From Arenicellales bacterium (GTDB taxonomy: Bacteria; Pseudomonadota; Gammaproteobacteria; Arenicellales; JAHEKD01): a stretch of DNA of 64,000 nucleotides. The notes below the pieces were generated by a model that was not told the DNA's origin, did not search any database, and saw nothing but the letters and a program-made list of their open reading frames with translations. The stretch is taken from NCBI GenBank assembly GCA_028284225.1, contig JANQSD010000011.1:248001-312000 (forward strand), read 5' to 3'. This document shows, one piece after another, positions 3,340-21,561 of the stretch. Each line of letters opens with the position of its first letter. Within the stretch, counting starts at the first letter, position 1. A program made the translations under genes and the position numbers.

Positions 3340-4981
<1,642 letters not shown>

Positions 4982-5254
4982 TTATATGTTAAATTGAAGT
5001 CTTAGTCGGTAGGTAGCTGAGTTAAAAGCAAGATCCTGATAATAATATATGTATAAAGGATCATTAAAATTATTAATTTAATATCAGTTTAGGCGGGAAA
5101 TTTTTGACGAAAGGGTTGAATAGATAGATTTTGTGATAATGTTAAATTTGATTATTAATCATGCACAAACTATTGTATAAACTATATTTTTGGCTCAAAT
5201 TATGTCAAAATCAAATCAATAATTCGGTTATGTAGGAAGCTGGGTGTACTAGAG

Positions 5255-6727
5255 ATGTTAAATAGAAGAAATTTACTATTGAGTTCACTCGTATCGATAG
5301 CGCTTTTTTCTGCGTCTTCAGCGCAGGCGAGGTACGAGAATGACGTAAGATTGAGCACTTTGTTGGAGTCAGCAATACCTGAATTTGTTTACCCTAAGGA
5401 CTATACAGGCGATACATCAGAGCAGCCTGAACTAGAAGAAGAAATCAAGATATATTTTCAGCAAGGCTATCATCCAGTCTCTGTGTTATTTTATGCCATG
5501 CGCAATGGCATGGGAGCGAATGAAGTCATTGATATTGCAGAAGCTGCAGGGCTTGTGAGAGAGCATCTTGAGGGTGCTCGTTCAGGGTTAGAAGCGGTCT
5601 TGCCAGGTGGCGTATGCGGTACCAGTTATTTTATTAAGGACCCCACCGCTGCCCCAGGGTCTTATTCACTGACAAGCCTCAAACAAGAATTGAAAGATGC
5701 AGCTAATGATGGCTCTGGCGGCGGCCACGAAGAGCCGGCATTAGCCGATCTTTTGAGCAAATATTTTGACGATGAGGATATTATTTCAATCAATCAGGAT
5801 GATCCTAATCTTCATCAAGTTCATAATTCCGACTGGGCGGATACAACCGGTAGTATCCCGTCCGGTGGAGTGCCGGATAATGTCGAAGATTTTATTAATT
5901 CCGGCATTCCTGCACACCTGCATGCCTCAGCTGATGAATTACTGGCTTTAGTTGAGCAATCTAATGATTACTGGTTTTTTGATGATTCGCCAATCCCGCA
6001 AGGAAAAATAAATTCTGAAAGCCTGAATGCTAATGCACCGATTATGATTTCGTTATATACAGATCAGCAGCAGGCTGTTGTAGCACCCGGCCAGATTGAT
6101 CGTATCAACCAAGCCAAACTGGATAACGCCCGATTACCGGTATTGTTGTTCTATAGCAGTGCAAACTTGCGGCCGTTAAGTCAGATTTCGAAAAAAATCG
6201 GTTTTCCCGAGTTAGCTAATGCATACATTAGAAATGGTGTAAAGGTATCGCCTGTACCTAGTTGGGAAGAAGGAAATTACCATACTCAGGCGACAGCTCA
6301 GCAGCTTAAAGATTTATTCGAACTTCCGGCCAAAGAAGACATTCCGGAAGAGCGCTATACCAAAGCCTTGAGCACTATCGATAATGGTCGACCCATACAG
6401 GTAGCCCTTGTAGGCGGCAAGATGTTTTTAGGTGACCCGGATCGTGCTGTGGCTATGGCAGAGGATGGTGGCTATGGTTTGATTCCGCTTAATATCAGTT
6501 ATGTTGACCTGGAACCAAGCGAGAATAACTTTAGCATCTGCGAAGGTGCATTTCCATTCGCGGGAGCTGGATTAGGAGGCATAGGGGGGCCAACACCGAG
6601 CGGTGTGGTTTGTGAACCTGAAACACGCACTATAAGGACTCCTAGAACGATTAGAAGGGAATCACCGACACGTAGAATTACAGTCTTTGATGAGACTGTT
6701 GTAACGATTCCGTGTCCGATAAACTAA
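5255..6727 (+). CDS. Secreted protein of unknown family, first gene of the polysaccharide locus
   Basis: I do not recognise this 490 aa protein. It begins with a clear signal peptide (MLNRRNLLLSSLVSIALFSASSAQA, shown by its ends MLNRR and SAQA), so it is exported to the periplasm or beyond. The mature chain is acidic, with a Gly/Asp/His-rich stretch near residues 155-165. A central part (about 285-320: LPVLLFYSSANLRPLSQ) looks like a buried beta-strand/helix segment. The last 40 or so residues hold a Thr/Arg-rich run (TIRTPRTIRRESPTRR) between two cysteines. Cysteines occur near residues 122, 430, 452 and 488, so disulfides are possible. It lies 40 bp upstream of the beta-barrel gene in the same direction, which suggests a role in polymer export or surface attachment; that is inference only. 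Confidence 0.8.
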   Translation: MLNRRNLLLSSLVSIALFSASSAQARYENDVRLSTLLESAIPEFVYPKDYTGDTSEQPELEEEIKIYFQQGYHPVSVLFYAMRNGMGANEVIDIAEAAGLVREHLEGARSGLEAVLPGGVCGTSYFIKDPTAAPGSYSLTSLKQELKDAANDGSGGGHEEPALADLLSKYFDDEDIISINQDDPNLHQVHNSDWADTTGSIPSGGVPDNVEDFINSGIPAHLHASADELLALVEQSNDYWFFDDSPIPQGKINSESLNANAPIMISLYTDQQQAVVAPGQIDRINQAKLDNARLPVLLFYSSANLRPLSQISKKIGFPELANAYIRNGVKVSPVPSWEEGNYHTQATAQQLKDLFELPAKEDIPEERYTKALSTIDNGRPIQVALVGGKMFLGDPDRAVAMAEDGGYGLIPLNISYVDLEPSENNFSICEGAFPFAGAGLGGIGGPTPSGVVCEPETRTIRTPRTIRRESPTRRITVFDETVVTIPCPIN

Positions 6728-6767
6728 ATGATTATGTTGATGTTTACATAAGTTTAATGCGTAGGGT

Positions 6768-8219
6768 ATGAGTATGGTTCATAAAAGAAATCTCCAAATT
6801 TTGCTGGGTTCGATTGTTGTTGTTGGTGTTATGAACGTGAGTTATGCACAATTTGCCACCGCACCGCAAGCGGAACCCACATTCTCAGCATCTCCCGTTA
6901 AAACTGTTCCCAAGGTCAGCACTTTCGGCGTTCCTATTGGTGTTGTCACTCAGGAACGTTTGAATGAGCCGATTGCAGTACAACGTGTGCGCTGTGGGCA
7001 GGAAGACGCATGTTTCAGGGGCAATGAACCAGAGTCAGAAATTTCTCAGGATGATCAGGTTGAGTCCAGGGCGATTGATCCAAGCACGGTGGATGATGGG
7101 CTTTATGCCTCATTATCCTTGGGTTATACCCATCATGACAATATTGAGCGCTCTGCTACCAATGAAGAAGAGGAAGACGGGTTAGGTTTTGGTTTAGGGT
7201 TACTTTATCGTAATCGTGTGGATAGATTGTCATACCAGGTTGGTGGACAAACTTCAGCAGTGGCATTTGATGACAATGATAATAATGATTTTGACCGTTA
7301 TTCAGTATCGGCCGGATTATTGTACGAATTGACTGAGATTATCGACCTCGGATTACATGCGGGTTATACCAAGGCTAATGAGGAGCGAAATGCCAGTGGT
7401 AGTCGTATCGTCAGAGATGGTTCAGAAACGGATGAGTTTGAGAGTCAAATTGTCGGCGGGCAAATTACAATTGGCCGTCCGCAGAGTCGGTTTCAATTTG
7501 CATTAGCGGCTTCTCATTCAGAGAATGATTTTACTCTGAAGGATCCTGTCGATATAGCATCAGGCGCTATTGATTTGCGTGACCGCGATTATGATCATAT
7601 TAGCGGTACTGTCTTTTACAACACAGAAGGACCAATACGATATTTTCTCGAAGCTAATCTAACGGATATCGACTACGATGTTGATACTATTCGGAATCTT
7701 GATAGTGAGGAAACAGGTTATTATGTCGGTGCCTTGTGGGCTATTAGCCAGATCACAGCCGCCGAAGTTAAAGTTGGCCAGTTAGATAAGGATTTTGAAG
7801 ACCCGGCACTGGATGATGTAGATGAAACGTCATATTCAGCTAAATTACGCTGGCAGCCTACACATCGTGCCTCGTTTACTTTCTATGGCTCAGAACGCTT
7901 TGAAGAGACAACCGAAATTGCTTCGACTTTTTTTGAATCCAGGGTGTTAGGTGTAAATCTCGCCTATCAAGTATTACCTCAGAAACTTGATTTATTAGCC
8001 TACTATAACCGTATTGATGATGACTATAGCTCGGGCCGTGAGGATGAAACGGATGATTATGGCATAGGTCTTATCTATCATCTCAGAAGGTGGTTAGGTA
8101 TCGGATTTAGATATGGTCATGCAGAGAGAGATTCAACGCGTGCGGATGCGAACTATGACGACGATTACTATGATATTTTCATTCAGTTAAATGCTGGAAA
8201 ATCTATAAAACTATTCTAA
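6768..8219 (+). CDS. Outer-membrane beta-barrel protein of a polysaccharide export locus
   Basis: The 483 aa precursor has a signal peptide (hydrophobic core ILLGSIVVVGVMNVSYA), a linker of about 90 residues with two cysteines (CGQEDAC), and then a long run of alternating amphipathic strands from about residue 110. Typical strands are YASLSLGYTHHDNI, LGLHAGYTKANEERN, and VKVGQLDKDF. Strands alternate with acidic, Asn/Asp-rich loops and the chain ends in a strand closing with Phe. This fits the BBP2-like or capsule-locus beta-barrels rather than a TonB receptor, as no plug is visible. Position directly before the Wza-type gene suggests an outer-membrane pore for the polymer. The number of strands cannot be fixed by eye. 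Confidence 0.82.
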   Translation: MSMVHKRNLQILLGSIVVVGVMNVSYAQFATAPQAEPTFSASPVKTVPKVSTFGVPIGVVTQERLNEPIAVQRVRCGQEDACFRGNEPESEISQDDQVESRAIDPSTVDDGLYASLSLGYTHHDNIERSATNEEEEDGLGFGLGLLYRNRVDRLSYQVGGQTSAVAFDDNDNNDFDRYSVSAGLLYELTEIIDLGLHAGYTKANEERNASGSRIVRDGSETDEFESQIVGGQITIGRPQSRFQFALAASHSENDFTLKDPVDIASGAIDLRDRDYDHISGTVFYNTEGPIRYFLEANLTDIDYDVDTIRNLDSEETGYYVGALWAISQITAAEVKVGQLDKDFEDPALDDVDETSYSAKLRWQPTHRASFTFYGSERFEETTEIASTFFESRVLGVNLAYQVLPQKLDLLAYYNRIDDDYSSGREDETDDYGIGLIYHLRRWLGIGFRYGHAERDSTRADANYDDDYYDIFIQLNAGKSIKLF

Positions 8220-8301
8220 ATTTACATTGTAGTAGTCATCTAATAGTTTATTTTTGTAACCTGTGACTGAGTGATCATTTTGTCACTCTTAGAATTTGGT
8301 G

Positions 8302-9087
8302 ATGATTGTCAATATCCATAAGTTTATTACTTTATTTTTGTTGTTATTCTATGGCTGCGTGACGCTGGCACAGAATGACCTGGAGCAAACAGATTTAACC
8401 GGTGGTGACGAGTATAGACTGTCCCCAGGTGATATTGTTTCTGTGACGGTATTTGGAGAACCTGATATTAGTGTTGGAAGTATGCGGGTACCACTTTCAG
8501 GGATTTATAACTATCCTTTGATTGGTGAACTGAAACTAACCGACGAGACCACAGCTACTTTAGCTAAAGAACTGGAATCAAGGCTACGAGCAGGATTTCT
8601 CTCCGACCCCAAAGTTTCAGTTAACATCGTTCAGTATCGACCGGTAATCATTACCGGCTCAGTGGATAGTGCTGGAACCATTAACTATCAAGAAGGAATG
8701 ACGGTTAGGATTTTATCCGCACTTGCACAGGTTGCTACAAACTCCATTGATATGGACAGTATTGAAATACAACGTGGATCATCGACCTTTAATCCGGAGA
8801 ATCTTGATTCGATTATTCTTCCCGGAGATATCGTCTCTTACAATCTTGTTAATAATAAAGGTGATTATTACTATATTTATGGCGAGGTTAATCGTTCGGG
8901 TAAATATGAATTTGAAGATGGTCTAACGATTGAGCAGGCGATTATCGTGGCTGGGGGATATACCCCATTCGCTTCAAAACGCAACATTAGGGTGAGGCAT
9001 AGCGGGGCAGAAGATACGATTAAAACTAAACTTCACGAACTTGTTGAAGCCGGAGATGTGATTACCATAAAGAAACGCTGGTTCTGA
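8302..9087 (+). CDS. Polysaccharide export protein, short Wza/OPX type
   Basis: Periplasmic or outer-membrane export component. The 261 aa precursor has a signal peptide (HKFITLFLLLFYGCVTLAQ); the Cys follows a weak lipobox (FYGC), so lipidation is uncertain. A Poly_export domain starts at YRLSPGDIVSVTVFGEPDI (about residues 35-115) and one or two SLBB regions follow (VIITGSVDSAGTINYQ and YYIYGEVNRSGKYEF). It ends with GDVITIKKRWF, just after the second SLBB, and so lacks the C-terminal helix that makes the outer-membrane pore in E. coli Wza (379 aa). A GTG at 8299 and a TTG at 8296 are alternative starts; ATG 8302 keeps the signal peptide. A hairpin (GAGTGA/TCACTC, 8269-8288) lies just upstream. 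Confidence 0.93.
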   Translation: MIVNIHKFITLFLLLFYGCVTLAQNDLEQTDLTGGDEYRLSPGDIVSVTVFGEPDISVGSMRVPLSGIYNYPLIGELKLTDETTATLAKELESRLRAGFLSDPKVSVNIVQYRPVIITGSVDSAGTINYQEGMTVRILSALAQVATNSIDMDSIEIQRGSSTFNPENLDSIILPGDIVSYNLVNNKGDYYYIYGEVNRSGKYEFEDGLTIEQAIIVAGGYTPFASKRNIRVRHSGAEDTIKTKLHELVEAGDVITIKKRWF

Positions 9088-9127
9088 CTCGGATTTAATC
9101 AAGTTTAAAACTATTACGAATATTTGA

Positions 9128-11263
9128 ATGAACAAAAGCTATCATTTTAACGAAGGACCGGGAGAGGGATCTAACCTGTCTCAGTTATCAGCGATATTTG
9201 ATAGAGAAGAAGCGTCTGGCCAGGCCGGCCATTTTCTGGCTAATCTAGGTTATGCACTAAAGAAATTTAAATACCTGATTATTTTCAGCACCATACTGTT
9301 TACTTTTTTGGGCTGGTATAACACAGCTAAAAAACCAATTCTCTATCGTTCCAGTTTGACTTTGATTAATGAGCCTGATCTAAACTCCGGAGTGGCCGGC
9401 AGTGATGGTGCACGTTTTCTGGTCTATTTAACACAACACTATTATCAAACCCAATTCGAAATATTAACCAGCAAGAAGCTGGCGGAAAAAGTAGCCGAGA
9501 GAATTATTGCTGATGATATCAGTGTTCCAACTGAGGCCACTACTCATTTAAAGCAATCCCCGCTTTATGAATGGGTGGGAGAACTAAAAGCCCGACTTAA
9601 ATCCATTATTAACCGTATTTCCTCCAGTTTTCGCGGCTCAGACATCCCAACGGAGAGTCAGCAAGTTGATGCGGTTCCTGTTACTCAGGAGAACAGATTA
9701 GTTCGTCGATATACAAGTTTGGTCAAGTCAGGATTAAGGGTTTCTGGAGGAACTCGAAGTCAATTACTAACGTTGTCATTTGTTTCGACTGATCGTGTAT
9801 TCGCTGCTGAAATACTGAATTTAATTGCCAGTGTTTATCAAAATTATGTTTTGGAGTCAAAGCAGCAGGTTAATCAAACAACCTTGGGATGGTTAGTTAA
9901 CCAGCTAGAAGCTGCTAAAAGTGAGCTTTTGGACTCGGAAAAACGCTTGATTGACTTTCAAAAACAGGTACAGCTCACCAGTGCCATGAGTATTGAAAAC
10001 CAAAATAATGCTAATCTCAGTGATCTAAGCCGCCAATATAACCAGGCAAAACTTAATTATGATGAGTTATTAGCACGTTATGGTTCAAAACACCCAGAAG
10101 TAAGAAAAGCTTTTATTGAATTAAATTCGTTAAAGAGAACTCTGGACAACACAGCAGGTGAAAATTTAGACAGCCAGGACTCTGTTTTTGAACTGGCTAA
10201 ATTGGAAAAAGAAGTAGAAACAAACCGAGATTTATATTTGAACTATCTGGCCAGGTTCAAAGGCTTTAATATCTCAGGCGACCAAAATGTTAATACTATC
10301 AAGGTACTTGATAAAGCTGAGGTTCCGGGAGCCCCCTTTTCGCCTAACCTGCAAAGAGGAATATTGCTTTGGGGTTTGTTCGGTGTGCTGTTAGGTGTGA
10401 TTTTGTCCTTGTTACTCTCATTTCTTGATAGGACTTATAAAACAGTCGAAGATATAGAGCACAAGCTGAGATTGCCGGTGCTGGGTCAATTACCGTTTTT
10501 ATCTAATAAAGTATTATCAGCATTGATTTCTGGCAAAAAAAATATTTCTGACCCTGAGATTTATTACACATCCAATACGAAATCAATTTTTTCAGAAGCC
10601 ATAAATCATATTCGTACCAACTTACTGTTTTCCAAGATTGACAAGCAACCGCAAACAATACTTATTACATCTTCTGTCCAGGCCGAAGGGAAAACTACTG
10701 TAGCGACTAATTTGGCATTTTCACTTTCGAAAATTGATCAAACTATTTTGATCGACGCTGATTTACGCAAGCCGCGTATTGCCAATGTTTTTCAATCAGA
10801 TTTGCCTGAAGAGGAAGCTAAAGGACTAGTTGATTATCTTGCCGGGCTAGCAACATTTGATGAGGCGTCTTATCAGCATTCAACCTTTAATCAATTGACA
10901 ATATTACCTTCGGGAACAATTCCACCGAACCCTCAGGAATTGTTGGCAAGTTTCAAGTTCAAGGAATTCCTGGATGAATTAAAGCCGAAGTATAAATTTA
11001 TTGTCATCGATACCGCACCTGTTTTGCCGGTTAGTGACTCACTTGTACTGGGAAAACTTGTTGATGTATTGCTGGTAGCGGTTAAGGCCGGATCAACAAC
11101 TATTAAAATGACCCGGGAAACAATCAAGCGATTAAATATTGCCAGAGTCTATCCGACTGGACTTGTGCTCACACAGCTCGATAAGCCTAATAAAGCATAT
11201 GGCAAACATGGCTTGAATTATTATTATTCTTACTATGGAAATGAAGTAAAAAAGTCTGCCTGA
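9128..11263 (+). CDS. wzc: Wzc-type polysaccharide co-polymerase and bacterial tyrosine kinase
   Basis: Inner-membrane protein that controls polymer length and export in the Wzx/Wzy pathway. The 711 aa chain has a Wzz domain between two membrane segments (about residues 49-65 and 411-434), with a periplasmic coiled-coil region between. The proline-rich motif PGAPFSPN before the second segment is present. The cytoplasmic kinase has Walker A (VQAEGKTTVATNL, about 515-528), Walker A' (ILIDADLRKPRI, near 540) and Walker B (FIVIDTAP, near 622). A C-terminal tyrosine cluster (LNYYYSYYGNE) is the expected autophosphorylation tail. It follows the export gene by 40 bp, the classic wza-wzc pairing without a separate wzb phosphatase in the window. 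Confidence 0.96.
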   Translation: MNKSYHFNEGPGEGSNLSQLSAIFDREEASGQAGHFLANLGYALKKFKYLIIFSTILFTFLGWYNTAKKPILYRSSLTLINEPDLNSGVAGSDGARFLVYLTQHYYQTQFEILTSKKLAEKVAERIIADDISVPTEATTHLKQSPLYEWVGELKARLKSIINRISSSFRGSDIPTESQQVDAVPVTQENRLVRRYTSLVKSGLRVSGGTRSQLLTLSFVSTDRVFAAEILNLIASVYQNYVLESKQQVNQTTLGWLVNQLEAAKSELLDSEKRLIDFQKQVQLTSAMSIENQNNANLSDLSRQYNQAKLNYDELLARYGSKHPEVRKAFIELNSLKRTLDNTAGENLDSQDSVFELAKLEKEVETNRDLYLNYLARFKGFNISGDQNVNTIKVLDKAEVPGAPFSPNLQRGILLWGLFGVLLGVILSLLLSFLDRTYKTVEDIEHKLRLPVLGQLPFLSNKVLSALISGKKNISDPEIYYTSNTKSIFSEAINHIRTNLLFSKIDKQPQTILITSSVQAEGKTTVATNLAFSLSKIDQTILIDADLRKPRIANVFQSDLPEEEAKGLVDYLAGLATFDEASYQHSTFNQLTILPSGTIPPNPQELLASFKFKEFLDELKPKYKFIVIDTAPVLPVSDSLVLGKLVDVLLVAVKAGSTTIKMTRETIKRLNIARVYPTGLVLTQLDKPNKAYGKHGLNYYYSYYGNEVKKSA

Positions 11264-11284: not shown

Positions 11285-11953
11285 TTGACAGTCAAATTTC
11301 GTATTTTATCTAGACTGATTAGCCTGATCATTCTAGCCTTACTCATATATTTATCAGTGAAGCTATTGGTCGAGATCAATCGACTTCAAGACTCTCTCGA
11401 GCAGATGAATTATTCGTCACAGCAAGCAAGTGTGGGTTCAAATAATGCGCAGCTTGAGAATTTGAAAATCGATAGCAAGGATTTTCAATTCTTATCGTGG
11501 GACTCAGAGATCAGTTATACGCTTGCATCGGCCAATTTATATTCAATCAGACATACTGATAATAAAGGTTTACAGCAAGCCCTTTTATCCGAGGCTCAAA
11601 ATCTGCTGAACAAGGCTCAACACTTTTCTCCTTTAAATATCAATTCGGCTATTTCGAATTTATCGATATTGATCGATCAAGGTGCACCTTTGAATTATTT
11701 GTTACCAAAAATAGATAAGCTGATTGATTTAGTACCGAAAGATCAAGACTTAAAGGCAGATATAGCAAGGTTATGTTTTAAGTTAAGTGTCATCAATAAT
11801 GATGCAATGAGTCAGGCTGAGATTATAGATAGATTAAATAAACTGTTTATTTTCTCAATGGATTATCGCGGTATGACACAGGTGAATCGTTATGCAAGAC
11901 TGTTTAATCAAAACGAGTTGCTTGCAAGGGTGAAAACCAATGTCCGCAATTGA
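11285..11953 (+). CDS. Single-pass membrane protein of unknown family in the polysaccharide locus
   Basis: Not recognised. The 222 aa product has one N-terminal membrane segment (LISLIILALLIYLSVKLLV, residues about 11-29), a short coiled-coil-like stretch (INRLQDSLEQMN) and then an all-helical, Leu/Asn-rich region that could be TPR-like and should face the periplasm. TTG 11285 is the only start that keeps the membrane segment; the next Met is at residue 41. The gene begins 21 bp after wzc and its end overlaps the next gene by 14 bp, so it is clearly part of the operon. A role in organising polymerase and co-polymerase is possible but unsupported by any motif. Confidence 0.75.
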   Translation: MTVKFRILSRLISLIILALLIYLSVKLLVEINRLQDSLEQMNYSSQQASVGSNNAQLENLKIDSKDFQFLSWDSEISYTLASANLYSIRHTDNKGLQQALLSEAQNLLNKAQHFSPLNINSAISNLSILIDQGAPLNYLLPKIDKLIDLVPKDQDLKADIARLCFKLSVINNDAMSQAEIIDRLNKLFIFSMDYRGMTQVNRYARLFNQNELLARVKTNVRN

Positions 11954-13313
11954 TTTAAAACGTCACGCGGCCTTGGACTATTTTTTGCTTTTGTTATTGT
12001 GCTTTTGCTTAATAGTATCACTGCTTCCATTTCATCTCATCTACAAAGAAAATATTTCTTTAATCTTTGCATTAATCACTGTCAGCTTATTCATCTTTTA
12101 TGCCGGGCGATCTTGGCAGTCAGAGAACATAGATCGTAGTTTCTTGATTAGTCGATTGTTGTTTGCATATTTGATTTATATATTGATTCAAATTATCCCT
12201 TTACCAACAGAATTAATGAGTCGAATTTCTGTTCCACGTTCGTTAATTTGGCAAGCAGGTGCATACGGACTCAAGGATTATGCAACATTAAGCCTGGATA
12301 TCAGTGCGACGGTCTGGTCTGTGATTCTGTTAGCTTGTTATTTCTCTATCTTTTTATTGACCACTAATTTGGTTATTACACAAAGGAGATTATTGATAGT
12401 TGTCTTTGTAATATTTTCACTCGGCATTTATCAAATTGCTTTTGATTTGATATCAAAGTCACTGGGGTATCAATATATTAGTTCCTCAGAGACAGACGGG
12501 CACTCATACCGTTTAACCGGTACTTTTATCAATAGCAACAATCTTTCGGCACTGATTAATATATCATTCGCATCTGGGTTAGCCTTACTAATGATATTGT
12601 TTGACCGCTTTAAGTCAGGCAAGAAAATTATTAGCCTGGGGCTCATCATACTTGTGATTGCCGGACAGATTATTCTCTTATACGGAAGCATACAATCAGG
12701 GTCTGCCGGTGGACTTTTGTCATTGTTTCTGGCTGTAGCAGTGATCCTCACTTTGTTATTGTGTAGACGCCTGGAATTGAAAGGTTTGATGCTCATCTTT
12801 GGGTTTTTTGTATGCACTATCAGTTTGTTAGTGTTTTATGGAAGTCGTGAACTCAATATTGAACAATTAACTCAAAGACTTACACTTAGTGGTAGACCTG
12901 ACCTGTGGATGGCTGTGATTAACATGTGGAAAGATTTCCCGGTCTTTGGTGTCGGCGCCGGAGCATTTGAATGGACATTCCCGGGTTATAAGACTGATGA
13001 GTTGTCACCACTAAGAATTGTTAATGCACATAGCACTTATTTGAATTTACTTGTTGAAACTGGTTTGGTCGGAATATGTTTTATGATAATGATTGTATAC
13101 ATATACATAAAAAATATTATGATGCTGGTCAAAGCCAATCCAAATCTGGTTTATCTGGTAGGATGTTTGATGACAGGCTGGGTTGCATTTATGACACATG
13201 AAGCAGTGGAAAACAATTTTTTGCTGCCATCGGTAGCGATGCCGTTTTTTTGTCTGATGGCGTTAGTGCTTTGTGTAGGGAAAATAGACTTTAATTTAGG
13301 TAAGGCAAATTGA
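11940..13313 (+). CDS. O-antigen ligase/polymerase family membrane protein (Wzy_C), first copy
   Basis: A 457 aa polytopic inner-membrane protein with about ten to twelve hydrophobic segments. The Wzy_C signature is seen as [18 protein letters not shown] (near residue 190) and, in the large periplasmic loop, [27 protein letters not shown] followed by [14 protein letters not shown] (key residues: Arg of GRPDLW and His of AHSTYLN). Such proteins either polymerise undecaprenyl-linked repeat units (Wzy) or ligate glycan to an acceptor (WaaL); sequence alone does not decide. It overlaps the upstream gene by 14 bp and the downstream gene by 4 bp, so translation is coupled. A second protein of this fold is encoded at 17137. 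Confidence 0.9.
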
Positions 13314-14286: not shown

Positions 14287-16107
14287 GTGTGTGGTATCGC
14301 CGGAATTTATAATTTTGAGCAAACCCAGGCCGTCGACGCTGATTTGTTAGTGCAAATTAACCAAAGCATGAATCGACGTGGCCCGGATTATTCAGGTTTT
14401 TGGTATTCAGATAATCATCAAATTGGCTTGGCCCATAATAGACTTTCGTTTGTTGATCTTCACCCAAGATCAAATCAGCCGATGCAATATTTAAATGGTC
14501 GCTATGTCATTACTTACAATGGAGAAATTTATAATTATAAAGAACTCAGGCAAAAACTAATTAACAAAGGTTATGAGTTTCAAACAACTTCTGATACTGA
14601 AGTTATCACGGCCATGTACAGTTGTTATGGTTCGGCTATGCTGACGATGTTGCGAGGAATGTTTGCATTTGTAATTTGGGATAATGACGAGCACAAGCTG
14701 TTTGCTGCAAGAGACTTTTTCGGGATTAAGCCTTTTTATTATTACCATGATAAAAATAGATTCGTATTTGCCTCACAGGTTAAAGCTATTTCGCAGCGCC
14801 GGGGATTTAAGCTGACCGCTTGTGCAGCCGGGTGGTGCGGTTTTATCCGTCATGGAAGTGTCCCGCAACCCTACACCATCTTCAATGAGATTAGAGCATT
14901 GCCATCTGGGCATTATTTAGAAATAAGTCAGGGATCGGGATTAAAACTCAAGCCTTATTTCTCCATTTACGATGAATTCGCTAGCATTGAAAATTCATCC
15001 GGGTTAGGCGTCGACTTTGCAGAAATTGACCAGGCACTATCTGCTAGTGTCGAGCATCATTTAGTGGCAGATGTCCCGGTTGGCCTGTTTTTATCGTCCG
15101 GTATCGATTCAACCGTGCTCGCAAGTTATCTGGCAGAACAACAAGACAAACCCGTCGCATTTACTCTGGATTTCAGTGAATTTGATCCAGGGCGTAATGA
15201 ATCACGACTTGCCAGTCAGACAGCTGCTGCCTATCAGCTCGATCACAAGGTGATTGAAATTGAATTAGATGATGCTGCACTGATACTGGATAAATTCTTT
15301 GCCTCTATGGATCAGCCCAGTATAGACGGTTTGAATGTTTGGCTGATTAGTCAGGCTGTTGCCGCAGCAGGTTACCGGGCTGTTCTCTCAGGGCTGGGTG
15401 CAGATGAGGTTTTAGCCGGTTATCCCTCCTTTTCCGATGTGCCGAAATACTCAAAACTATTGCAAATAGTAAATAAAATTTCCAAAACCGGAATACCACT
15501 AGAACAAATTACTGAACTCAATTTATTAAAGAAATTAACGCATCCGAAATTAAGGGGATTTACTTATTTCTCACAAGCACCTTTTTTATCCGCATACTAC
15601 TTAAAGCGCAATTTATTTCTGGAGCATGAGTTTGGCTTGTTTTTTGATTCTGAATTTTTGCAGGCTGGGCAACAGAAATTGAACGAAGACGATGCTGAAT
15701 TAGCGGGTAATCTAGCCCAGATTGAAAACTCATACCTAAAAGTTTCTGCGTTGGAAATTGACAATTATATGAAAAACCAGTTATTAAATGATGCAGACTG
15801 GGCCTCAATGTATCATTCACTGGAACTGCGAGTTCCTTTTGTCGATTGGCCGTTAATCAAGGCGTGTGCGACGCAGCTGGTAAAACTAACAAAGCCAACT
15901 AAACGAAATGTCATAGCGAAAACTTTAAATGGACGCTTGCCGGAACAAATTCTTCACAGAGAAAAAACCGGCTTTGAAACACCGGCAGAAAAATGGCTTA
16001 ACGATATTCCCGCATTGCAAGGATGGAAATCGAAACCGGAATTTACTCAGCCAAATTATCCGTGGGCCAGGCGTTGGGCCTATGAAGTGAAGCAAAGATT
16101 TGCTTAA
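14287..16107 (+). CDS. Asparagine synthase-like glutamine amidotransferase (AsnB family)
   Basis: A 606 aa two-domain enzyme. The start is GTG 14287, which makes Cys2 (MCGIAGIYNF) the N-terminal nucleophile of the class II glutaminase domain (about residues 1-210), with RGPD and NGEIYNYKELR motifs. The synthetase domain has the PP-loop at residues 269-275 (LSSGIDS; SGGxDS is commoner) and a late SLELRVPFVDW motif. Family members either make asparagine or amidate sugar carboxylates in capsule and O-antigen loci. Its place between a uronate-processing enzyme and glycosyltransferases favours amidation of a uronic acid or similar glycan substrate, but this is context only. The start lies 35 bp after the decarboxylase. 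Confidence 0.92.
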   Translation: MCGIAGIYNFEQTQAVDADLLVQINQSMNRRGPDYSGFWYSDNHQIGLAHNRLSFVDLHPRSNQPMQYLNGRYVITYNGEIYNYKELRQKLINKGYEFQTTSDTEVITAMYSCYGSAMLTMLRGMFAFVIWDNDEHKLFAARDFFGIKPFYYYHDKNRFVFASQVKAISQRRGFKLTACAAGWCGFIRHGSVPQPYTIFNEIRALPSGHYLEISQGSGLKLKPYFSIYDEFASIENSSGLGVDFAEIDQALSASVEHHLVADVPVGLFLSSGIDSTVLASYLAEQQDKPVAFTLDFSEFDPGRNESRLASQTAAAYQLDHKVIEIELDDAALILDKFFASMDQPSIDGLNVWLISQAVAAAGYRAVLSGLGADEVLAGYPSFSDVPKYSKLLQIVNKISKTGIPLEQITELNLLKKLTHPKLRGFTYFSQAPFLSAYYLKRNLFLEHEFGLFFDSEFLQAGQQKLNEDDAELAGNLAQIENSYLKVSALEIDNYMKNQLLNDADWASMYHSLELRVPFVDWPLIKACATQLVKLTKPTKRNVIAKTLNGRLPEQILHREKTGFETPAEKWLNDIPALQGWKSKPEFTQPNYPWARRWAYEVKQRFA

Positions 16108-19803: not shown

Positions 19804-21561
19804 ATGATAAACATACTTGGAATTAACGCCTACCATGCTGATGCGTCGGCATGTATTATAAAAGATGGAAAGCTTATTTTCGCTGTAGAAGAAGAACGAT
19901 TAAACCGGGTCAAACATTGGGCCGGGTTCCCTGTGGAATCAATTAATGCCTGTTTGGATTCGGCCGGGTTGCAATTACAGGATGTTGATTTTATAGCCTT
20001 CAACTCTAACCCTTATACCAATCTTGCTAAAAAAATTTATTATGTCCTGAAAAGACAACGTTCTTTGCAATTCATAAAATCAAGAGTAAAAAACACGCGC
20101 ACACGGCTGAATGCTGAATCTGATTTTGATAAGCATTTTCCTGGTATTGATGTTAAGTCTAAATTCAAAAAAATTGAGCACCATCAGGCGCATTTGGCAT
20201 CAGCCTATTATGCGTCTGATTTTGACCAGGCCTGTGTGTTGTCGATAGATGGATTTGGCGATTTTTCCAGTGCGGCATGGGGCTATGCCCAGGCCAATGA
20301 AATTAATATTGGTCACTATGTGAACTATCCACATTCACTGGGTATTTTTTACCAGGCAATTACCCAGTATTTAGGTTTCAAACATTATGGAGATGAGTAC
20401 AAAGTCATGGGTATGGCAGCCTATGGCAATCCTGTTTATGTAGAGCAACTGCAACATTTGTGCATCTATAATCGCTCCGGTCATTACGAACTCGATCTGG
20501 ATTATTTTCTTCATCATACGAATGAATCAACCTACGGTTTTGATTCCGGGCAACCTGTATGTAGTGATTTCTTCAGTTTCAAATTAGTTGAATACCTGGG
20601 CCCAGCCAGAAATCCGACTGATCCTATTGAACAGCATCACAAAGATTTAGCTTGCTCAGCTCAGGTCGTCTATGAGCGTGCCTTTTTCAATTTATGTAAC
20701 CGGCTCTACGATCAGTATCAATCCGATAATCTGGCTTTAGCGGGAGGTTGTGCCATGAATTCTCTTGCAAACGGTGGAATATCAAAACAAACACCATTCA
20801 AGCAGGTATATATTCAGGCTGCTGCAGGTGATGCGGGTGGGGCAGTGGGCGCGGCGTTTAGTGTAGCCATTGATCAGGGAGTAGATAGAAACTCCCTGAC
20901 TATGCCACATGCTTATTGGGGGCCGGCGTTTTCGGATCAAGACTATCAGCGGTGCATCGAGACCTACTCAAAAGATTTTAAGCAAGCGGATTGTGATATC
21001 AGGCACATAGAAAATACCGATGAACTTTGCCTTGAAGTTGCTTCAGCAATTAATTCTGGCTTGGTAATCGGCTGGTTTCAGGGAGCGGTTGAATGGGGGC
21101 CAAGAGCATTGGGTAATCGTTCAATATTGGCTGATCCAAGGCGCGAGGATATGCAGGATATACTGAATTTAAAGATCAAACGGCGAGAGTCATTCAGGCC
21201 GTTTGCGCCCTCAATTCTGATTGATCAAGTTGCTGATTGGTTTGAACAAGATACCGAAGTGCCGTTTATGGGTCAGGTGTTTATGATTAAAGAGAATAAG
21301 AGAAAATTAATTCCGGCGGTTACTCATGTGGATGGTAGCGGGCGGCTACAAACCGTCAGCCAACAATCTAATGACCTTTACTACAAGCTGATAACAAAAT
21401 TTTTTGAATTAACCAGTGTGCCGATTCTGCTAAATACCTCATTTAATGAAAATGAACCCATCGTTTGTCGACCGCAAGAAGCAATAGAATGTTTTCTGCG
21501 AACTAAAATGGATTATCTGGTACTGGGCAACAACATTATTTCTCGTGCTGAGCAAGAGTAA
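19804..21561 (+). CDS. Carbamoyltransferase, NodU/CmcH family
   Basis: Transfers a carbamoyl group from carbamoyl phosphate to a hydroxyl of a sugar or small molecule through a carbamoyl-AMP intermediate. The 585 aa chain opens INILGINAYHADASACIIKDG, with the VEEERLNRVKHWAG segment following. A metal/carbamoyl-AMP histidine motif EHHQAH sits at residues 125-130, with SIDGFGDFSSAAWG and the ATP-site block LALAGGCAMNSLANG downstream. The C-terminal domain has RESFRPFAPSIL and NTSFNENEPIV, characteristic of the family. The start ATG abuts the preceding TAG. In a polysaccharide locus the target is probably a sugar in the repeat unit. Its 3' end overlaps the convergent glycosyltransferase by 26 bp. 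Confidence 0.95.
   Translation: MINILGINAYHADASACIIKDGKLIFAVEEERLNRVKHWAGFPVESINACLDSAGLQLQDVDFIAFNSNPYTNLAKKIYYVLKRQRSLQFIKSRVKNTRTRLNAESDFDKHFPGIDVKSKFKKIEHHQAHLASAYYASDFDQACVLSIDGFGDFSSAAWGYAQANEINIGHYVNYPHSLGIFYQAITQYLGFKHYGDEYKVMGMAAYGNPVYVEQLQHLCIYNRSGHYELDLDYFLHHTNESTYGFDSGQPVCSDFFSFKLVEYLGPARNPTDPIEQHHKDLACSAQVVYERAFFNLCNRLYDQYQSDNLALAGGCAMNSLANGGISKQTPFKQVYIQAAAGDAGGAVGAAFSVAIDQGVDRNSLTMPHAYWGPAFSDQDYQRCIETYSKDFKQADCDIRHIENTDELCLEVASAINSGLVIGWFQGAVEWGPRALGNRSILADPRREDMQDILNLKIKRRESFRPFAPSILIDQVADWFEQDTEVPFMGQVFMIKENKRKLIPAVTHVDGSGRLQTVSQQSNDLYYKLITKFFELTSVPILLNTSFNENEPIVCRPQEAIECFLRTKMDYLVLGNNIISRAEQE

Follow-up and report, generated by a model that had tools for sequence, protein, structure and literature searches.

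A probable composite OPX/beta-barrel translocon and its conserved upstream gene in a polysaccharide locus of Arenicellales

Introduction

OPX (Wza-type) proteins without a pore helix have been described together with separate beta-barrels from several bacteria. Schwabe et al. 2022 report 453 OPX proteins of no more than 280 aa that are without the helix and have a coupled barrel, and VpsN/VpsM of Vibrio cholerae are named in that work (PMC9601211). All five OPX proteins longer than 250 aa that were examined by Schwabe et al. have the make-up D1D2D2, and a lipoprotein is predicted for every myxobacterial D1D2 OPX protein except one (PMC9601211). The experimental precedent is the EpsX/EpsY pair of Myxococcus, in which the barrel and the OPX protein interact and stabilise each other (PMC9601211). 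Class 3 OPX proteins and Wz porins were defined by Saidi et al. 2022 (PMC9603273). In a Sphingomonas cluster, polymer formation needs both the barrel and the OPX protein (PMC11340318). The brpN gene of Vibrio vulnificus was considered as a further relevant gene; it is described as an acyltransferase and is unrelated.

The DNA discussed here, referred to as the window, is a stretch of 64,000 nucleotides from an Arenicellales bacterium of the Gammaproteobacteria (assembly GCA_028284225.1, contig JANQSD010000011.1, positions 248,001 to 312,000). It holds a short OPX gene, a beta-barrel gene directly upstream of it and a third conserved gene that precedes both.

The locus and its closest relatives

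The genes that are central to this analysis are the following.

5255..6727, + strand: third gene, encoding a probably secreted protein of 490 aa with a helical N-terminal domain and two ParB/sulfiredoxin-like domains (suggestive); Pfam and NCBIfam gave no match
6768..8219, + strand: outer-membrane beta-barrel of the BBP2_2 family, 18 strands predicted, barrel part at about 7098-8195 (Pfam 1.5e-32, AlphaFold2 model)
8296..9087, + strand: OPX (Wza-type) protein without pore helix, D1-D2-D2, the second D2 being read from the alignment (Pfam, NCBIfam, alignments)
9128..11263, + strand: Wzc-type chain-length protein fused to a tyrosine autokinase (TIGR01007 above cut-off; GNVR, AAA_31)
11940..13313, + strand: Wzy_C membrane protein, polymerase or ligase of the locus (Pfam 1.4e-18)

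The barrel and OPX genes are both open on the + strand with a gap of 76 nt between them, and they are flanked by the third gene and the Wzc-type gene. The context is that of a polysaccharide locus, with the Wzc-like kinase as the next gene after the OPX gene and Wzy_C three genes on. In the 20 proteins scanned (window 1-25660), Pfam identified neither a Wzx flippase nor a priming transferase. Scans of 4900-9300 for promoters (13 vs a shuffle mean of 12.4) and terminators (3 vs a shuffle mean of 2.9) gave numbers about equal to those of the shuffles. The gene that follows the Wzc-type gene (11285-11953) encodes a protein of 222 aa with no convincing family match and, among the loci scanned, was found only in the window and in a sister genome. 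Two other genes of the polymer locus, an asparagine-synthase-like gene (14287-16107) and a carbamoyltransferase gene (19804-21561), may modify sugars.

The window resembles EpsY/EpsX (WzaX/WzpX) of Myxococcus xanthus, where a short OPX protein without pore helix also stands beside an 18-stranded barrel in a polysaccharide locus. However, EpsY consists of D1D2 only and belongs to the kind that are nearly all predicted lipoproteins, whereas the window OPX protein is D1-D2-D2 with a probable ordinary signal peptide. The window barrel also differs in that it matches BBP2_2 and is preceded by the third conserved gene. VpsN/VpsM of V. cholerae are, like the window pair, a gammaproteobacterial couple of short OPX protein and barrel (PMC9601211). 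Another Vibrio locus (L114), used here for the comparison, has the same barrel-OPX-Wzc order, but its OPX protein has one SLBB match in 176 aa and its upstream neighbour looks by eye like a priming enzyme.

The best-scoring NCBIfam models for the pair are those of EpsL/EpsE from XrtB/PEP-CTERM exopolysaccharide loci, yet both scores lie far below the curated cut-offs, with 47.5 bits vs 275 for the barrel (EpsL, TIGR03014) and 116.4 bits vs 262.65 for the OPX protein (EpsE, TIGR03028), and the pair was therefore not assigned to these equivalogs. The Poly_export and SLBB parts of the OPX protein align with solved chains of the class 1 OPX protein Wza of E. coli, which has a C-terminal membrane-spanning helix domain that is absent from the window protein.

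The OPX protein and its C-terminal end

The OPX protein has 263 aa and matches Pfam Poly_export (4.6e-18) and SLBB (7.8e-13). Its listed start is TTG 8296, and ATG 8302 is the likelier one. Residues 39-261 align with positions 1-237 of the 239-position EpsE model. The C-terminus, ...AGDVITIKKRWF, is the last SLBB strand with zero residues beyond it, and therefore no space is left for a pore helix; Wza_C is not among the Pfam matches at E up to 1. A lipoprotein is unsupported, the lipobox being poor by eye and the relatives having no conserved Cys in the alignment. Judged by eye, the protein probably carries an ordinary signal peptide.

The same end is found in other OPX proteins that have such a barrel upstream. 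In 101 of 104 distinct barrel-paired proteins the last residue is a Phe, at or near the point where the window protein stops (16 relatives were compared in the alignment); the exceptions are L068, which ends in Leu, L041, which ends in Trp, and L073, which is fragmented. The loci L078-L157 were collected by a peptide pattern a few residues before the OPX end and are not independent there. For the class sample L185-L224 only the barrel served to select the loci, and the OPX end is the same there. A further 25 OPX hits of the same collections are unpaired by the rule used, which required the barrel upstream, so that this group holds L097 and L099 (barrel after OPX) as well as L149, whose reading frames overlap too far. 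These end in Phe (13), Tyr (11) or Arg (1). Since 24 of the 25 unpaired proteins end in Phe or Tyr, an aromatic C-terminal end is common to short OPX proteins generally.

The first two claims of the preliminary description, that the export protein stops after its SLBB region without a pore helix and that a beta-barrel gene lies directly upstream, are borne out by the end of the OPX protein, which is that of its paired relatives, and by the BBP2_2 gene at 6768-8219. What does not hold is the implied novelty of the arrangement in a gammaproteobacterium, VpsN/VpsM being already published among the 453 pairs (PMC9601211).

OPX proteins that stand away from barrels were compared in the same way. 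In the order, 42 of 79 OPX matches are not near a BBP2_2 match. Forty of these were examined, the two at contig ends being excluded, and two more were unusable (L291 runs off the contig and L305 is unlike an OPX end), leaving 38. By eye, a helical-looking C-terminal tail of at least about 20 residues is present in 25 of the 38, of which 12 (L293-L304) are one set of weak Poly_export matches, and is absent in 13. The second OPX protein of the window genome (L076, 333 aa) is one of the 25 and has by eye both a C-terminal tail and a lipobox; no barrel was hit in the 12 kb fetched around it, and it has no match to Pfam Wza_C. An OPX protein of a sister genome (L077) is without tail and there is no barrel hit on its 11.8-kb contig. 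The rule that a helix-less OPX protein comes with a barrel is strong, but because of this sister-genome protein it is not absolute. As 13 OPX proteins that are not near a BBP2_2 match are without tail, L077 among them, a helix-less OPX protein does not always have such an adjoining barrel.

The barrel and its co-occurrence with OPX proteins

The barrel protein has 483 aa and matches Pfam BBP2_2 (Putative beta-barrel porin 2) at 1.5e-32. Its AlphaFold2 model, made from an alignment of 32 sequences, has a mean pLDDT of 81.2 and 18 long strands within residues 111-476. The top Foldseek rows are mostly siderophore and other TonB-dependent receptors at TM of about 0.4 and are little informative.

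Among the 109 genomes of the order, Poly_export is matched in 43 and BBP2_2 in 34. Both are present in 34 genomes, the barrel only in 0, the OPX protein only in 9 and neither in 66 (Fisher p about 3e-20, uncorrected for kinship). The pairing is far beyond chance. The split pore of the preliminary description is supported by this co-occurrence, all 34 of the 34 BBP2_2 genomes also having an OPX match, together with the missing C-terminal helix. Within the order, 38 of 41 BBP2_2 matches lie no more than 2,330 nt from an OPX gene, always on the same strand and with the barrel upstream (a single broken gene accounts for two of the 38). The other three have no OPX on the contig, and one of them is a weak partial match. 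Also among the three is the BBP2_2 match of L042, which is without an OPX despite 5.5 kb of downstream sequence.

In the class sample of 274 genomes, BBP2_2 is matched in 111 and in 100 of them above the cut-off; many of the matches are short weak stretches. Among 40 class loci, which are stronger BBP2_2 matches outside the order and not a complete run down the list, an OPX gene lies downstream of the barrel in 32, and the eight loci without OPX include two contigs of less than 4 kb. A scan of named genomes found the order barrel-OPX-Wzc also in Arenicella, Vibrio, Endozoicomonas, Kistimonas, Neptunomonas, Paraglaciecola, Marichromatium and Mariprofundus. Two cultured strains with this order are Marichromatium bheemlicum DSM 18632 (L125) and Kistimonas asteriae KMD 001 (L123), the tail gene of the latter being divergent.

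Variations on this layout were also observed. In two Marithrix records (L097:5853-8927 and L099:5826-8927) an OPX protein of 1024 or 1033 aa precedes the barrel, so that the usual order is reversed. In family f2, which is Arenicella-like, the OPX proteins paired with a barrel have an N-terminal extension of about 200 aa (L048:5572-7101, L053:3241-4659, L060:5531-6868, L065:5165-6451). Two of these extensions were scanned, and they weakly match bacterial SH3 domains (SH3_3 at 2.8e-5 in L060, below the cut-off, and at 0.09 in L048).

The third gene

The preliminary description was silent on the conserved gene just 5' of the barrel. This gene appears undescribed; the few terms tried in open-licence PMC papers gave no description of it. 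In a profile search of the order, 30 of 39 barrel loci have a relative of it immediately 5' of the barrel; the 39 are the window and 38 fetched loci (the weak match G004:C53 was left out). Nine barrel loci are without it. One of them, L070, starts 54 nt before the barrel, and another contig of that genome ends in the third gene (L236). A second, L075, has a weak barrel match and no OPX. In the remaining seven (L038-L041, L064, L072, L074) the OPX proteins are short, at 179-243 aa. Where the third gene is present, complete OPX proteins measure 259-545 aa, a range that leaves out L044 (cut by the contig end), L073 (fragmented) and L042 (no OPX). Counted by genome, the third gene is found in 35 of 109 in the order and in 4 of 274 in the class sample, three of those four belonging to the order. 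Genome G003 has a broken copy near serS (L237:5809-6711) and neither a barrel nor an OPX match.

In other genomes of the order, CHASE2-adenylate cyclase genes identified by Pfam precede paralogues of the third gene (L230, L231, L232); in L234 such a cyclase gene was recognised by eye. FecR-like genes are present too in L231 and L232, and the paralogues in L230 and L235 end in -PSPS. No barrel was hit near the paralogues of L230-L235 in the stretches fetched. Because paralogues stand behind CHASE2-adenylate cyclase genes with no barrel hit, the family also serves outside barrel loci.

Three domains are distinguished in the third protein.

5414..5614, + strand: N-terminal helical domain, related to small secreted proteins whose genes precede barrels in other bacteria (hhalign of profile A11 vs A10, Prob 96.0, E 4e-9, where A11 is nine hand-picked alike small proteins, three of them already hit by the third-protein profile)
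5912..6172, + strand: first ParB/sulfiredoxin-like domain, suggestive (repeat of the second; ParB_N profile Prob 76.5)
6248..6514, + strand: second ParB/sulfiredoxin-like domain, suggestive (ParB_N profile Prob 83.6, E 8e-6; sulfiredoxin Z 5.5)

Domain three repeats domain two (hhalign Prob 98.3). The ParB_N comparison used 13 ParB sequences, and the N-terminal domain as negative control gave 0.1. Sequence searches with the second ParB/sulfiredoxin-like domain were not significant (PDB ParB 0.35; Pfam ParB_N 0.21 in one of 12 members), and with the first the PDB sequences gave no hit at E up to 10. The structural model of the protein is poor (mean pLDDT 64.3). Foldseek with this model returned nothing at E 0.001 or better, a structural second look gave rows for sulfiredoxin (best), ParB and free serine kinase at Z of 5.5 or less, and the best match in a PDB sequence search with the whole profile was SbnI at 0.033. 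On these grounds a known fold for the whole protein was set aside. A ParB/sulfiredoxin-like fold is proposed for domains two and three because the weak structural hits and the profile comparison point to one fold; since the sequence searches were not significant, it is a suggestion only.

The tails of secreted proteins at this position were compared across 103 non-redundant pairs with at least 600 nt upstream. Immediately 5' of the barrel these pairs have 63 distinct ORFs whose start resembles a signal peptide. For 44 of the pairs, Vibrio L114 included, the crude rule used found no secreted ORF upstream of the barrel. An S[PGD][SNHD] end is present in 19 of the 63 vs 6 of the remaining 397 ORFs with such a start in these loci (Fisher p 2.7e-13, uncorrected for kinship and optimistic, the pattern having been chosen after the tails were seen). 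Of the six control hits, five belong to this kind of protein as well, namely those of L042 and L205 and three that are divergent to the barrel (L107, L113, L123). In other bacteria, a good part of the small secreted proteins encoded before barrels have -SPS or -SPN as their C-terminus, and Ser-Pro occurs in the last 12 residues of 27 of the 36 sequences matched by the third-protein profile, three small proteins and two fragments being included in the 36. The window protein itself ends in -TIPCPIN, without a Ser-Pro tail. FecR-like secreted proteins were also seen upstream of the barrel in L222:2600-3631 (2.5e-6) and L116:3206-4363 (only 0.19), and upstream of the OPX gene in L076:6854-7771 (0.0054); all three have Gly- or Pro-rich tails.

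Judged by the place of its gene and the relations of its domains, the third protein may have an accessory function as a periplasmic or secreted protein. It may belong to a secreted family that has a small helical domain in common throughout gammaproteobacteria; behind this domain there would often be a flexible tail rich in Gly and Pro, with Ser-Pro-Ser or Ser-Pro-Asn as its last residues. Such a family would be encoded mostly directly upstream of the barrel; in the order of the window it would have gained the two ParB/sulfiredoxin-like domains, and its presence would go with the longer D1-D2-D2 OPX proteins. We consider it possible but rather doubtful that the protein is an unrecognised third part of the translocon, whose tail may dock in the barrel or the OPX ring and there act as a plug or gate or guide the polymer, or which may be a protein anchor of the polymer.

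That the third gene stands outside the translocon and codes for a secreted protein with another reason to stay in the locus, such as a sensor or a matrix protein, has a little less than an even chance. The paralogues behind CHASE2-adenylate cyclase genes and the rarity of the family beyond the order are consistent with this. So is the finding that deletion of prmB in Sphingomonas, a hypothetical gene listed between the priming enzyme and the barrel, had no effect on polymer (PMC11340318), prmB being comparable to the third gene in its position. However, such a role fits less well with the position directly upstream of the barrel in most barrel loci of the order, with an N-terminal domain that is common to small proteins at the same position elsewhere, and with the broken copy of G003, where the barrel and OPX were not found.

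Discussion

Schwabe et al. 2022 describe the composite translocon as an OPX protein of no more than 280 aa that has a Poly_export domain and neither a C-terminal alpha-helix nor a Wza_C domain, with a barrel of at least 16 strands within five genes. The window OPX protein has the Poly_export domain in 263 aa and neither the helix nor Wza_C, and the adjoining gene encodes a barrel with 18 strands modelled. By each criterion examined here, the window pair agrees with the composite OPX/beta-barrel translocon published in 2022, and the arrangement is not new.

The barrel and the helix-less OPX protein very probably form a composite outer-membrane translocon in which the barrel is the pore and an OPX ring links it to the Wzc-type protein. 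A polymer, presumably a sugar polymer, would be made by the downstream genes and would leave the cell through the barrel and OPX translocon. The 18-stranded barrel would be the outer-membrane pore, and the OPX protein would form a periplasmic ring of D1-D2-D2 subunits that joins the periplasmic mouth of the barrel to the Wzc-type protein (9128-11263).

The predicted fold of the barrel is that of a large outer-membrane barrel, and fold alone is no proof of a polymer pore. In a structural second look against the PDB the Occ/Opd porins (Z 18.9) and the alginate exporter AlgE (Z 18.6, rmsd 4.8, 312 aligned) are tied, so that diffusion porins match as well as a polysaccharide exporter. Wzi is an accessory outer-membrane barrel of group 1 capsule. 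Table 1 of Saidi et al. has many Wzi-like barrels in the neighbourhood of OPX genes (PMC9603273). Both points would suit a barrel that is an accessory, either a surface lectin or a diffusion porin, with the OPX protein using some other, unlinked outer-membrane protein. We regard this as improbable, as the barrel-OPX-Wzc order recurs across the order and the class, the OPX protein has no segment able to cross the membrane, and the equivalent barrel and OPX protein of Myxococcus interact and stabilise each other (PMC9601211). That the OPX protein is instead a Wza-type protein of a damaged classical system, its pore helix lost by a frameshift or a misread end, is hardly credible, nothing having spoken in its favour, and was ruled out, since the C-terminal end is conserved in 101 of 104 barrel-paired proteins and the OPX protein of the sister genome (L069) ends alike.

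The composite translocon of the window supports, in a little-studied gammaproteobacterial order, the rule that a helix-less OPX protein goes with a dedicated barrel, and it does so with a contrast within one genome. The third-gene family would be an obvious candidate for gating or guiding split pores and is the part worth following.
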